Assembly: GCA_028275105.1 (NCBI GenBank)
Contig: JAQCNI010000046.1
Location: 1 to 48,909, forward strand
DNA: 48,909 bases
Origin: Halorubrum sp.
GTDB taxonomy: Archaea > Halobacteriota > Halobacteria > Halobacteriales > Haloferacaceae
Direction of reading: 5' to 3'
The translations under genes and the position numbers were made by a program. The notes below the pieces were generated by a model. The model saw only the letters and a program-made list of their open reading frames with translations. It did not search any database and was not told where the DNA came from. The stretch's first letter is position 1, and the number at the start of each line of letters is the position of its first letter. Positions 10,735 through 48,732 of this stretch are shown here, in pieces.

Positions 10735-10987
10735 GGCGCGCTCCGGTGAGCGGGCCGAAGGCTCGTGAATCCGAGCGCGAGGGAGTCGCACGCGACGTGG
10801 GCGACCGACGGGAGCCCACAAGCGAGCGACGAGGCTGGGGAGGCGCGAGGCGTACGGCTGTGCGGGGTGGGACTCAAAGGGGCAGCTGCGAGGGCGGCGC
10901 AGGCGACGAAAGCACTGGACGGAGCGAACGAAGTGAGTGACTGAAGCGCGCATCGAGCGTGCGCCGCCCTCGCAGCTGGGGCTTTGG
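10735..10987 (+). repeat. dispersed structured repeat, copy A
   Basis: shares GGCGCGCTCCGGTGAGCG..., GAGGCTGGGGAGGC..., GGGGTGGGACTCAAAGGGGCAG and CTGGGGCTTTGG modules with 29635-29883(-) and 47489-47798; perfect 19-bp inverted repeat 10883-10901 / 10960-10978. Confidence 0.85.
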
Positions 10988-11087
10988 CGGTTATGATGGT
11001 CACCGCGACAGCAACCGCGTACCGTCGGACAGCGGACACTCCGACGGTGGGCATCTCGATATGCCGCCCGACACTCACGAAATCGGA

Positions 11088-17799: not shown

Positions 17800-18163
17800 C
17801 GGACTGAGGGGAGTAAGCCCCCTTCGGTTCATCCCGACATTCGGCTGAGCGTCCGCGCCGTGGCCGGACTACCTGTCGCGCGGACTTGCACCGGCGAGGG
17901 TTCGCCGTTCCATCCGTTCCCACCCGTCGATCCTCATCGGGTTAACTCCCTTCCCTCACGGGTCGGTTCGCGCGTTCGCGGGTGCCCCCGCGAGCGCCGC
18001 GGTCACCGAGGCGACCGCGCGAATCACGGGTCGGGGCGGGGGGTGTCGTTGCTGTTCCAGAGCCAGCCGTCTCCGACTCCGGGCGTGTGCCCGGTCGCCC
18101 GTCCGGCCGGTGGGGGGACTTTCCTCATGCCGGAGGCACGGGAGTCGGGCTCCCTCTGTCCGA
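17800..18163 (-). ncRNA. rnpB: RNase P RNA (archaeal type A)
   Basis: minus-strand CR-I GCATGAGGAAAGTCCCCCCACC, CR-IV/V region GGTGCAAGTCCG...GACAGGTAGTCCGGCC, and ATGAACCGAAGGGGGCTTACT; 5' CGGACAGAGGGAG pairs with 3' CTCCCCTCAGTCCG (P1). Confidence 0.93.
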
Positions 18164-29439: not shown

Positions 29440-29532
29440 ACGGGCTCCATCTCGGCGGGCACACAAAACGCTATGGCCGAGTCGACGTCCTCCCGGAGCG
29501 ACGTCGTCGATCACCGAGCGGGCAACGCCACC

Positions 29533-29642
29533 GAAGCCCCAGCCGCTCGGGACGATATCGTCGTTGTCGCTGAGACCACTCTCAAAGCCCCGGCCGCTCG
29601 GGACGATATCGTCGTTGCCGCTGAGACCACTCTCAAAGCCCC
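29533..29642. repeat. 51-bp direct repeat (2.2 copies) abutting the end of dispersed-repeat copy B
   Basis: aaagccccrgccgctcgggacgatatcgtcgttgycgctgagaccactctc at 29533, 29584; third start at 29635 runs into copy B. Confidence 0.85.
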
Positions 29643-29883
29643 AGCCGCGACGGCTCGGAGGCCTCGCTGTGGTCCTCAGTCGCTCACTTCGTTCGCTCCC
29701 TGCGGTCCTTGCGTCGGCCGCCGTCGCCCTCGCGGCTGCCCCTTTGAGTCCCACCCCGCGCTACGACCGCACCTCACGCCTCCCCAGCCTCGGCCTCGGC
29801 GACCCGCCGGAACCGCCGGCGGGCCGCCTCGACCTCCCTCGCGCTCGGGTTCGCGCCCTGCGGGGCGCTCACCGGAGCGCGCC
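29635..29883 (-). repeat. dispersed structured repeat, copy B
   Basis: reverse complement carries GGCGCGCTCCGGTGAGCG, GAGGCTGGGGAGGCGTGAGG, GCGGGGTGGGACTCAAAGGGGCAGCCGCGAGGG, GCTGGGGCTTT; stem 29730-29738 / 29642-29650. Confidence 0.82.
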
Positions 29884-33378: not shown

Positions 33379-33452
33379 GGGCTCGTGGTCTAGCTGGTTA
33401 TGACGCGGCCTTTACAAGGCTGAGGTCGGCGGTTCGAACCCGCCCGAGCCCA
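33379..33452 (+). tRNA. tRNA-Val (anticodon TAC)
   Basis: GGGCTCG acceptor pairs with CGAGCCC; anticodon loop CTTTACAAG; T-arm GGCGGTTCGAACCCGCC; discriminator A. Confidence 0.95.
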
Positions 33453-36334: not shown

Positions 36335-38536
36335 ATGGCGAGCGCCCTCGACGAGGACACCCAACAGTCGCTCGCGGCCGGACGCGAGTCCGCGAGGGCG
36401 TTCCTGCGGTCGATCCAGAAGGACCTCCAGAAGGTGTTTATCGTCTTCCTGCTGGGCTTTCTCGGGACGTTCTGGGCGCTCCGCGTGTACATCTGGGACT
36501 TCCTCAAGAAGATCACGGAGGCGAACATGTCGGCCGCGCTCGCCGACGAGGTCGACGTCATCGCGACGACGCCGTTCGAGGTGATCCTCCTCCAGGCGAA
36601 GATCGGGCTGATCGTCGGCGCGATCGTCGCGCTGCCCGGACTGGTGTATTTCGGTCGGGACGCGCTCCGTGAACGCGGGATGTGGCCGCAGTCGTCGGTG
36701 CCGCGGTGGCAACTCGCGGCGATCGGGCTCCTCGGCGTGGTCCTGTTCTCCGTCGGCGTCGGCTACGGGATCTACGCCTTCTTCCCGATCATGTTTGCGT
36801 TCCTGGCCGGGTTCGGGCTCGAAGCCGGCCTCCAACCGACGTACGGCATCGTGATGTGGACGGAGTTCATCGTCTTTCTCTCGCTGTCGTTCGGGCTGGC
36901 GGGCCAGATGCCGCTGTTGATCACCGGGCTCTCGTACGCCGAGATCGTCCAGTACGAAACGTTCCGCGAGAAATGGCGCTACGCCGTCGTCGCCATCTTC
37001 GTGTTCGGCGCGCTGTTCTCCCCGCCGGACCCGTTCACCCAGTTGATGTGGGCGTTCCCGCTGATAGCGTTGTACGGGTTCAGCCTCTACCTCGCGAAGC
37101 TGGTCGTCACCGCCAAACGGAGCTCCGACCGGATCGACGTCCTCGGGGCGGTCCGGAACCATTGGAACGTCGTCGCCGGCGCGGCCGTCCTCGGTGGGGG
37201 ATTCGTGTACGGCTTCTACGAGTACGGCGGCCAAACTGCCGTGAACGGTCTCCTCCGGCTGGTCGGCAGCAACTGGCGGTTCCTCGATCCGGGCGGGGGA
37301 CTCGGCGTCGACCCGACGACCGCCCTCGGGACGTACGCCGCCGTCTGGGCGACCGTGTTCGTCGCCATCGCGACGCTGTGGGCGGTGTACACCGACCTCG
37401 ACACGACGAGCGCGGGGTACCGGTACGGCGACCCGGCCGCCATCGACATCGGCGAACTCGACGCGGCGGGCGTGCGGGCAGCCCCGGCCGCCGCGTTCCG
37501 GGAGATGACCGAGGAGGAGTCGGCCGCGCGAGCGGAGGCGGCGATGAACGACGGCGACGTCGAGAAGGCGCGGGCGATCCTCGACCGGTTCGACGCGGTC
37601 GCCGAGGCGAACGCGGGCGACGGCGACGGAGACGGCGCGGCAGCCGGGTCGGCGGGCGCGTCCGGCGTCGTCGAAAGCGTCGAGAACCGGACCTCGCGCG
37701 CGAGTTCGACGTTCCTCTCCGAACTCACCGACGGCGACGGGGAGGAAGCCGAGGACGACATCGGCGGCTACTACACCGACATCAAGTTCATCGTCGGCTC
37801 CCTCCAGTCCCGGTCGTTCCGGCTGCTCGCGGTGTTCGGCGGCGTGATGGCGGCCACGTTCACGTGGCTGTACCTCGGCGGGCTCGCGGCAGTCAGAGCC
37901 GACCTCCAGTCCCGGGTGCCGGCCGCAGTTGGCGGCGGGATCAACATCATCACGCTCCATCCGGTCGAGGCGCTGATCTTCATGGTGAAGTTCTCGATCC
38001 TCATCGGCGGCGTCGCCGTGTTCCCCGTGCTCCTCTACTACGCGTGGCCGGCGCTCCGTGATCGCGGGTTCGTCGCCGGGCGGGCGCGACAGGTGTTCAT
38101 CTGGGCCGGCGCGCTGTTTGGCGGCCTGATCGGCGGGTTCGCGCTCGGATACGGCTACATCGCGCCCGCCATCATCGGCTGGCTCGTCACCGACGCGGCC
38201 ACCGCCGACATGATCATCACGTATCAGGTGAGCGATTTCATGTGGCTCGTCGTTTTCACCACGGTCGGGATCGGCTTCCTCGCCGACATCCCGGTGGCGA
38301 TGGTGCTGTTGAACAAGGGGGGAGTGCCCTACGACGGCTTCCGCGGACGCTGGCGCGAGGTCACGGTCGGGATCATGCTGTTTGCCGCGGTGTTTACCCC
38401 CGCGGACGTGATCACCATGTTCCTCGTGACGCTCCCGCTCATGGCTGCGTACGGGGTCGGGGTCGGCGGCCTGTTCCTCGTCACGTTCGGCGGTCGCCGG
38501 AACCTCTCGCCGCCCGCCGACCTGCTCGGTCGATAG
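36335..38536 (+). CDS. fused dual TatC translocase (TatCt-like)
   Basis: two TatC halves in one 733-aa ORF (RSIQKDLQKVFIVFLLGFLGTFWALRVYIWDF... and second half LRDRGFVAGRARQVFIWAGALFGGLIGGFALGYGY). Confidence 0.92.
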   Translation: MASALDEDTQQSLAAGRESARAFLRSIQKDLQKVFIVFLLGFLGTFWALRVYIWDFLKKITEANMSAALADEVDVIATTPFEVILLQAKIGLIVGAIVALPGLVYFGRDALRERGMWPQSSVPRWQLAAIGLLGVVLFSVGVGYGIYAFFPIMFAFLAGFGLEAGLQPTYGIVMWTEFIVFLSLSFGLAGQMPLLITGLSYAEIVQYETFREKWRYAVVAIFVFGALFSPPDPFTQLMWAFPLIALYGFSLYLAKLVVTAKRSSDRIDVLGAVRNHWNVVAGAAVLGGGFVYGFYEYGGQTAVNGLLRLVGSNWRFLDPGGGLGVDPTTALGTYAAVWATVFVAIATLWAVYTDLDTTSAGYRYGDPAAIDIGELDAAGVRAAPAAAFREMTEEESAARAEAAMNDGDVEKARAILDRFDAVAEANAGDGDGDGAAAGSAGASGVVESVENRTSRASSTFLSELTDGDGEEAEDDIGGYYTDIKFIVGSLQSRSFRLLAVFGGVMAATFTWLYLGGLAAVRADLQSRVPAAVGGGINIITLHPVEALIFMVKFSILIGGVAVFPVLLYYAWPALRDRGFVAGRARQVFIWAGALFGGLIGGFALGYGYIAPAIIGWLVTDAATADMIITYQVSDFMWLVVFTTVGIGFLADIPVAMVLLNKGGVPYDGFRGRWREVTVGIMLFAAVFTPADVITMFLVTLPLMAAYGVGVGGLFLVTFGGRRNLSPPADLLGR

Positions 38537-38626
38537 GGACCGAAGGACCTGCTCGGTCAATAGGGACCGAAGGACCTGCTCGGTCGATAGGGACCGAAGG
38601 ACCTGCTCGGTCGATAGGGACCGGAG
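38519..38626 (+). repeat. 27-bp tandem repeat x4 containing the tatCt stop codon and a TCGGTC-N6-GACCGA hairpin
   Basis: gacctgctcggtcgatagggaccgaag at 38519, 38546, 38573, 38600. Confidence 0.93.
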
Positions 38627-38730
38627 GACCGCGAGACGGGCGACGGAAGCGAACACGGAACCCGCCCCGCGCGTGAACGACCCCCGGAACCGACGGGTAT
38701 TCCCGCGCGCGCCCGCTAAACGCGATAGAA

Positions 38731-47488: not shown

Positions 47489-47798
47489 GGCGCGCTCCCG
47501 CGAGCGCCCGTCAGGGCGCGAGACGGAGCGCGAGGGACGTCGCGAGCGACGTGGGCGACCGACGGGAGCCCACAAGCGCGCGACAGGGCGAGAGCAAAGC
47601 TCTCGCTTGCAACCGGCGCGTAGCGCCGGTGACGAGGCTGGGGAGGCGTGAGGCTGCGGTACTGTGCGGTCGGGGTGGGGCTCAAAGGGGCAGTCGCGAG
47701 GGGCGGCGCAGGCGACATAAGCACCGCAACGGGGGAGCGATAGCGACCGAGTGAGGAGCGCAGCGAGCGTGCGCCGCCCCTCGTGACTGGGGCTTTGG
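47489..47798 (+). repeat. dispersed structured repeat, copy C
   Basis: same modules as copies A/B; terminal stem 47691-47710 / 47770-47789, 20 bp including one G-U. Confidence 0.85.
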
Positions 47799-48123: not shown

Positions 48124-48732
48124 TCAAGCCGTGTACACATACCAACTACCATCATCCTGGAGCAGTATATACTCTTGTTTCCTTGACTCTCCTTCTTGAT
48201 TCCACGACACTAGAACAATAGCAAAGTCTTCGGCACCAGTTTCACTCACTATCGCCTCCATTGTTTGTTCAGATTTGTCAACTTCTTCTTGAACCTCTGT
48301 TTCATTTAAATTTGTGCCGTATTTTTTCTCAACTACCTCTCTTACTGAAACCCCATTGACCTCATTTAAGCTAATTTCCTCTTCAGCCGCCGTCAGATCC
48401 TCATGTGGATACATAGGCGATTCGGGATGTAGAACTGTATTCGCACCTTCCGTATCACCATTCTGTAATGCGGTTATATACTGTTCAAATATTTCCTCCG
48501 GGCTACCATCTGAACTGCCGGTGTCTCCACCGTCTGAACTGCCGGTGTCTCCACCGTCTGAACTGCTGGTGTCTTCACCATCTGAACTGCTGGTATCTTC
48601 ACCATCTGAACTGCTGGTGTCCCCACCATCTGAACTGCTGGTGTCCCCACCATCTGAACTATCAGCACAACCAGCAACAACGATTGTACTTACTGCTCCG
48701 ATTTCAGCCAGAAAATTACGTCGGCTTGCCAT
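48124..48732 (-). CDS. Tat-secreted lipoprotein with 8-aa tandem repeats (DUF4878-like fold possible)
   Basis: MASRRNFLAEIGAVSTIVVAGC lipobox with twin Arg; (SSSDGGDT)n; C-terminal NTF2-like pattern SPEEIFEQYITALQNGDTEGANTVLHPES...DDGSWYVYTA. Confidence 0.82.
   Translation of the reverse strand: MASRRNFLAEIGAVSTIVVAGCADSSDGGDTSSSDGGDTSSSDGEDTSSSDGEDTSSSDGGDTGSSDGGDTGSSDGSPEEIFEQYITALQNGDTEGANTVLHPESPMYPHEDLTAAEEEISLNEVNGVSVREVVEKKYGTNLNETEVQEEVDKSEQTMEAIVSETGAEDFAIVLVSWNQEGESRKQEYILLQDDGSWYVYTA

Follow-up and report, generated by a model that had tools for sequence, protein, structure and literature searches.

A dispersed, fold-conserved repeat family of haloarchaeal genomes and its possible nature as a single-stranded DNA hairpin element

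What is the structured sequence that recurs three times in a 48,909-nt stretch of a Halorubrum draft genome (hereafter the window), and is it as RNA or as a single strand of DNA that it folds? The preliminary description, made from sequence alone, had recognized three copies (A, B and C) that share ordered modules, with a perfect 19-bp stem in copy A and no long conserved protein frame, and had proposed either a multi-copy structured RNA or a non-autonomous repeat family, regarded as the best candidate in the window for something undescribed. The analysis reported here upholds the descriptive part of this proposal. All four modules were located in each copy and the stem was confirmed (Table 1); the count of three holds for the window, and 51 matching pieces occur in its own genome (G000, a draft of 2.5 Mb in 155 contigs). 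The 3' end that had been assigned to copy A is the end of the fold, and many copies run on into a 3' tail. The twofold proposal itself is supported, and which of its two halves is correct remains undecided.

Table 1. Positions of the element, its parts and other features of the window, with close inverted pairs found elsewhere
Feature	Position or locus	Strand	Basis
Copy A (copy of the preliminary description)	10735-10987	+	all four modules located
Copy A, P1: outer stem and inner hairpin, GAA loop	10735..10779	+	sequence, RNA MFE fold
Copy A, P2: variable hairpin, GTCGCACGCGAC..GCGAGCGAC	10785..10830	+	alignments, RNA and DNA folds
Copy A, conserved unpaired module CGAGGCTGGGGAGGCGCGAGG	10830..10851	+	alignment
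Copy A, GGGGTGGGACTCAAAGGGG: G-tracts 1-3 and CAAAG, 5' arm of terminal helix	10864..10882	+	G-tract counts
Copy A, P4: long hairpin, perfect 19-bp stem (10883-10901/10960-10978), GNA loop	10883..10978	+	covariation, loop survey
Copy A, 3' end GGGCTTTGG: G-tract 4 and CTTTG, 3' arm of terminal helix	10979..10987	+	covarying pairs
Copy A, degenerate 3' tail unit (GGTTATGATGGTCACCGCGACAGCAACCGCG..)	10988..11045	+	alignment
Copy B, full element	29633-29883	-	blastn of A against window, E=9e-42
Copy B, covariance-model (CM) core	29634-29797	-	CM R1, E=2e-28
Copy B, two 51-bp tail units, CNGGGGCTTYG in each	29525..29633	-	TRF and motif matches
Copy C, full element	47489-47798	+	blastn of A against window, E=3e-35
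Copy C, CM core	47628-47797	+	CM R1, E=3.6e-27
Close inverted core pairs, BIME-like	L054, L283, L287, L294, L295, L297		
Archaeal RNase P RNA gene	17802-18160	-	155.8 bits
tRNA gene	33379-33452	+	
27-bp tandem repeat, GACCTGCTCGGTCGATAGGGACCGAAG	38519-38630		4.1 copies, 96 % match
24-bp tandem repeat, downstream of copy C	48505-48660		6.5 copies, 93 % match

Anatomy, abundance and genomic setting

From 5' to 3', members of the family comprise P1 (GGCGCGYGCC.., with an inner hairpin), P2, the unpaired CGAGGCTGGGGAGGCGTGAGG, GGGGYGGGACTCAAAGGGGCAG, P4 and CTGGGGCTTTGG. The core measures ~165 nt and the whole element ~250 nt, and the P4 unit including its CAAAG/CTTTG ends spans about 112 bp. The sequence of P2 is swapped out entirely from copy to copy with its self-complementarity kept, and in P1 the complementarity between a copy's own arms is weakly above that of swapped arms (5.5 vs 4.9 bp, 131 copies). 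The apical rod of P4 consists of 2-bp steps with tandem G.A mismatches between them, and small perfect palindromes have been acquired within loops, as in copy C, which carries two additional palindromic hairpins at about 47583-47630. The unpaired module CGAGGCTGGGGAGGCGCGAGG is nearly invariant in 144 Halorubrum cores and partly retained in other genera. The G-tracts follow the layout GGGyGGG-N7-GGGG-[P4]-GGGG; of the 132 Halorubrum copies that could be assessed, 122 retain all four, each of at least three residues and in order, the motif covering only the first three (GGG-N-GGG..GGGG) is found in 23 of 30 rows from other genera, and these unpaired tracts are conserved as well as the stems. 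P1, P2, core and tail occur together in a 400-kb sample in which no convincing lone P1 or lone tail fragments were seen, and a composition of two separable elements was therefore rejected.

At least one extra 3' tail unit with GCTGGGGCTTYGG is present in 54 of 132 copies, mostly at a distance of 48-72 bp and often with TTATAA; beside copy B, such units form an array at 29534-29648 (TRF, period 51, 95 % match). The unit spacings are 48, 51, 54, 57, 63, 66, 69 or 72 bp, 78 of 82 being multiples of three, a regularity that is unexplained in the absence of an open frame. Different spacings sometimes occur within one array (L165, L130, L135, L038, L190 and others). Protein coding was rejected despite this spacing, since no frame is conserved, core indels are not multiples of three and stops close all tail frames, which bears out the preliminary description on this point. 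CRISPR-like spacers were likewise rejected, as adjacent units are near copies of each other.

The first search covered 24 Halorubrum genomes, and the family was present in every one. Strict counting with a 25-nt core motif (up to three mismatches, both strands) gave 93, 101, 72, 10, 83, 57, 142, 44 and 187 matches in nine near-closed Halorubrum genomes, split about equally between the strands, and none in a reversed control. Copy number thus ranges ~20-fold (10 in G020, 187 in G054) at similar genome size. Relatives detected with the covariance model occur in 93 of 147 haloarchaeal genomes, representing 39 of 56 genera. The exact core motif was found in at least 118 stretches of the GTDB collection, whose listed titles are Halorubrum bar one uncultured archaeon; it was absent from 2.9 million viral contigs, the element was absent from 50,697 phages, and carriage by the viruses or phages searched was rejected on these grounds. 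Plasmids yielded a single short match at E<=1e-5. In two near-closed Halorubrum genomes with fully listed positions, the largest contig holds every copy (93/93 in G007, 72/72 in G019), with about 10 and about 5 copies, respectively, expected off the chromosome; genome sizes were rounded, so exact odds cannot be given. Nothing exceeded the Rfam gathering cut-off, with chance hairpin matches only (MIR918 at 21.6 bits vs 268), the core sequence was absent from the relevant open-access papers searched, and matches in named plasmid records of other haloarchaea have almost no annotated feature beneath them (one listed exception, a 'hypothetical protein' in strain DL31). Copies A, B and C belong to a haloarchaea-wide family of non-coding intergenic repeats, old and apparently undescribed, with tens to nearly two hundred copies per genome.

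Gene context was derived from a home-made gene finder rather than from curated annotation. Only one of 84 copies overlaps a predicted gene, and the neighbours of 113 copies are convergent in 44 cases, tandem in 58 (28 sense, 30 antisense) and divergent in 11. The scarcity of divergent sites and the near equality of sense and antisense copies indicate that promoter regions are avoided without a sense preference in operons, a REP-like pattern. A same-strand gene lies upstream of 72 of the 113 copies (64 %), in many cases within 6-50 nt. A TATA-like TTTATAA begins 14-17 nt upstream of about 40 % of copies; an upstream promoter of the element's own was nevertheless rejected, because a TATA box at -17..-14 would place the transcription start inside P1. 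In a subset of copies (e.g. L042, L113, L171 and L172), a longer 5' extension is shared in which GTATTTAAATA lies about 49 nt and TTATAAA about 16 nt upstream, a spacing also unfit for an ordinary promoter of the element. Outside Halorubrum the core is frequently found in close inverted pairs, either tail-to-tail or head-to-head with the two cores 2 to about 150 nt apart.

Fold, inheritance and mobility

The predicted fold of copy A is more stable than that of 200/200 dinucleotide shuffles, whether computed as RNA (z -4.95) or as DNA (z -4.21). In an alignment of 38 diverse cores, 96.0 % of base-pair cells are paired (84.5 % when shuffled) and double compensatory cells number 138 (31 when shuffled), with 21 pairs altered on both sides; across other genera, pairing reaches 94.7 % vs 73.6 % and 25 pairs are altered on both sides. 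The latter alignment was fitted to the covariance model, which leaves the 38-core alignment as the cleaner test. None of 500 shuffles matched any covariation measure in either alignment, with both shuffled and slid controls. Pair 78-137 illustrates the pattern among the 144 cores, being AT in 86, CG in 33, GC in 19 and TA in 4, with a value of 18.5 vs a permuted maximum of about 5. From genus to genus, most pair columns stay 90-100 % paired while passing through several Watson-Crick types; in other genera, the letters of the P4 stem are mostly unrelated and the terminal helix changes from CAAAG/CTTTG to GAAAG/CTTTC, its pairs covarying between A-U and G-C and from C-G to G-C. Mismatches are asymmetric: G.T exceeds A.C about 3-fold (101 vs 37 in Halorubrum; for co-varying pairs alone, 81 vs 18; outside this genus, 31 vs 9), and therefore it is one strand, the + strand, that folds. 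The fold is under selection, and on one strand. That the letters change freely and the fold is kept makes it very likely that the shape of the element, as single-stranded DNA or as RNA, matters.

The positions of copies are inherited vertically, with turnover. Site and orientation are shared by 9 of 11 copies between G015 and G065 and by 5 of 11 between G015 and G043, and the flanking spacer diverges around copies whose site is conserved between species. At one locus, the element is kept by seven species and a related species, G023, has a short empty site; the site of copy A, downstream of FBPase, is occupied in 6 of 30 species.

Copies nevertheless change in concert. GAAG replaces the AAAG of other species in 74 of the 78 G015 copies listed, vs 1 of 72 in G019 and 3 of 93 in G007, and the opposite arm matches with CTTCG, which constitutes a compensatory pair swap; at one orthologous site, the two states are found in different species. 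Two copies at unlinked places (L023/L026) are 97 % identical over 337 bp with differing flanks, a P1 domain is chimeric (L082 vs L085) and whole modules have been swapped between copies. The lineage-specific switch, the unlinked pair and the chimeric P1 together establish concerted change across ~100 dispersed copies in one lineage, the cause of which is, most simply, likely to be gene conversion. No target-site duplication was seen at the borders of L023 and L026, which may reflect conversion rather than insertion. A further copy, L065 (G015:C1:126583-126862), has a P4 that aligns in the opposite orientation, as though an inversion had taken place between the two arms of the hairpin stem.

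No mobility enzyme could be associated with the family. Seven of 30 Halorubrum genomes, among them the copy-rich G015 (101 copies) and G019 (72), have no Y1 transposase gene, and neither P1 nor core was found in 100 kb around 30 Y1 loci, L258 being a tail match only; a link with Y1 transposases, as IS200/IS605 or as PATE by shared ends, was rejected on these grounds. The genes lying between close copies (HisA-like, MsrA-like and unknown, named by eye from translations) include no transposase, and an autonomous partner between close inverted pairs was rejected, the genes there being housekeeping or unknown. The preliminary description had named two outcomes that would refute it, a match to a transposase-bearing IS or MITE already catalogued and the absence of significant covariation. 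Both were checked and neither occurred: no such match emerged at the Rfam gathering level, at Y1 loci or among genes between close copies, and covariation is strong in two alignments.

Structured RNA or single-stranded DNA

Covariation does not reveal whether the folded molecule is RNA or single-stranded DNA. The hairpin loops offer a possible, if indirect, argument. GNA triloops cap the P4 apex in 75 of 99 cases, P1 in 33 of 93 and P2 in 24 of 36, against a background of 6 in 162 comparable perfect hairpins of the same DNA; among tetraloops, 37 are GNYA and 4 GNRA, and no UNCG was seen among the element hairpins surveyed. In DNA, GNA and GNNA loops closed by G-C stems give mini-hairpins of extraordinary stability (PMC4686876); RNA helices, by contrast, are stabilised by GNRA and UNCG tetraloops (PMC3972237). 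Loop chemistry leans, indirectly, towards single-stranded DNA.

The reading that best accommodates these observations, held with a probability of roughly 0.45 and with function inferred, is a strand-specific single-stranded DNA hairpin element of the REP/PATE kind with a four-G-tract core, which spread long ago and has been homogenised by gene conversion. One strand would become single-stranded transiently, on the lagging strand or in transcription or repair, and would fold into the DNA hairpins P1, P2 and P4, with GNA/GNNA caps, around the four G-tracts. These could close a G-quadruplex in the molar intracellular K+, its formation being inferred from the conserved tracts. The element may have been spread past the 3' ends of genes by a DNA-processing enzyme with strand specificity that has since been lost or has yet to be identified, and ectopic gene conversion in polyploid cells would now homogenise the copies and swap whole hairpin modules. 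A present role in the host, as a transcription boundary or a chromosome-structure site, is possible but conjectural. Several points weigh against the DNA reading: no enzyme has been identified, tolerance of G.T fits RNA as well, the loop argument is indirect, 64 % of copies lie behind a gene on their own strand, and the TTTATAA ahead of about 40 % of copies could be a promoter, although its distance would put the start within P1.

The main rival, to which slightly poorer odds are given, is a structured RNA, transcribed by read-through or from TTTATAA, which would serve as a 3'-UTR stability or termination element or as a discrete ncRNA, with P4 and the G-tracts binding a protein or ligand. It is favoured by the strong strand-specific covariation, the RNA fold score, the excess of copies closely downstream of same-strand genes and the frequency of the TTTATAA box. 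On the other hand, sense and antisense copies are about equal in tandem operons, a start at the observed TATA distance would leave P1 cut off, and the tetraloops are GNYA rather than GNRA or UNCG. A 3'-UTR role for those copies that follow same-strand genes remains possible.

Less probably, the family belongs to the SMR/PATE class of Haloquadratum, P4 corresponding to an SMR of ~110 bp with terminal inverted repeats and P1 and the tail to PATE-like remains of its host. The size and CAAAG/CTTTG ends of the P4 unit are in favour, as are the shared lack of a transposase, palindromes, dozens of copies and nested hairpin insertions (PMC3119063). However, SMR-A resides mainly within PATE/IS605, whereas the present element is free-standing and intergenic with P1, P2, core and tail kept together, neither P1 nor core is found at the Halorubrum Y1 loci, and SMR copies are commonly >95 % alike, whereas those described here are diverged yet conserved in fold; membership is regarded as unlikely. 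A neutral relic, in which palindromic DNA is kept alike by gene conversion and repeat expansion alone, could draw on the chimeric P1, the near-identical unlinked copies and module swapping, but is very unlikely given the pairing maintained through several Watson-Crick types across genera, the G-tracts conserved like stems, and a G.T over A.C asymmetry unexpected without selection.

A bolder form of the DNA reading is less probable but possible: an ancient, haloarchaea-wide chromosomal element whose folded single DNA strand is itself functional, with GNA-capped hairpins around a duplex-flanked G-quadruplex that uses molar potassium, ~100 copies evolving in concert and a function for the host, in organising the chromosome or in setting transcription boundaries. 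Whichever reading applies, few non-coding features of Halorubrum genomes are as abundant as this family, which occurs in most haloarchaeal genera tested, although it is almost never annotated in the records checked. It offers a natural test of whether covarying genome structure can be selected as single-stranded DNA, raises the question of how ~100 unlinked copies switch one base pair together in one lineage, and is of practical relevance for haloarchaeal assembly, gene calling and genotyping.

Comparison with known repeat systems

Like the present element, the omega RNA of IS200/IS605 (the TnpB guide RNA) is structured, ~150-250 nt long and adjacent to an AT-rich site; unlike it, the present element has no tnpB or tnpA at the loci examined and no variable 3' guide. 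The BOX element of Streptococcus pneumoniae is a modular dispersed repeat, foldable and with one module in variable tandem number. It resembles the haloarchaeal family in being modular and foldable with a tandem module, but is bacterial and of unrelated sequence, and the module repeated here is the 3' tail.

PATE and SMR of Haloquadratum (PMC3119063) are likewise haloarchaeal, palindromic, without a transposase and present in dozens to hundreds of copies. The present family differs in being multi-module with conserved G-tracts, and in a fold kept despite diverged sequence, although no sequence comparison was made. A 489-bp PATE has been reported from a Halorubrum virus (PMC10544981), whereas the motifs tested here are absent from viral contigs.

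Together with PATE and SMR, the closest described elements are the REP, BIME and REPIN sequences of bacteria, which the element resembles in being extragenic, high in copy number and palindromic, with few copies at divergent promoter regions and with compensatory stems; the inverted pairs of BIMEs have their counterpart in head-to-head copies at L054, L294 and L297. REPs are shorter (20-40 nt) and are associated with RAYT Y1 transposases, whereas several carriers of the haloarchaeal element have no Y1 gene. Archaeal Y1 proteins are reported to belong to the IS200 subclass only (PMC6006769), and a RAYT gene flanked by REPs was not found, G015 and G019 lacking Y1 and no element core lying at the 30 Y1 loci. 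The haloarchaeal family thus shares with REP and BIME elements its setting, its copy number and its compensatory stems, and differs from them in its size and in its occurrence without Y1.
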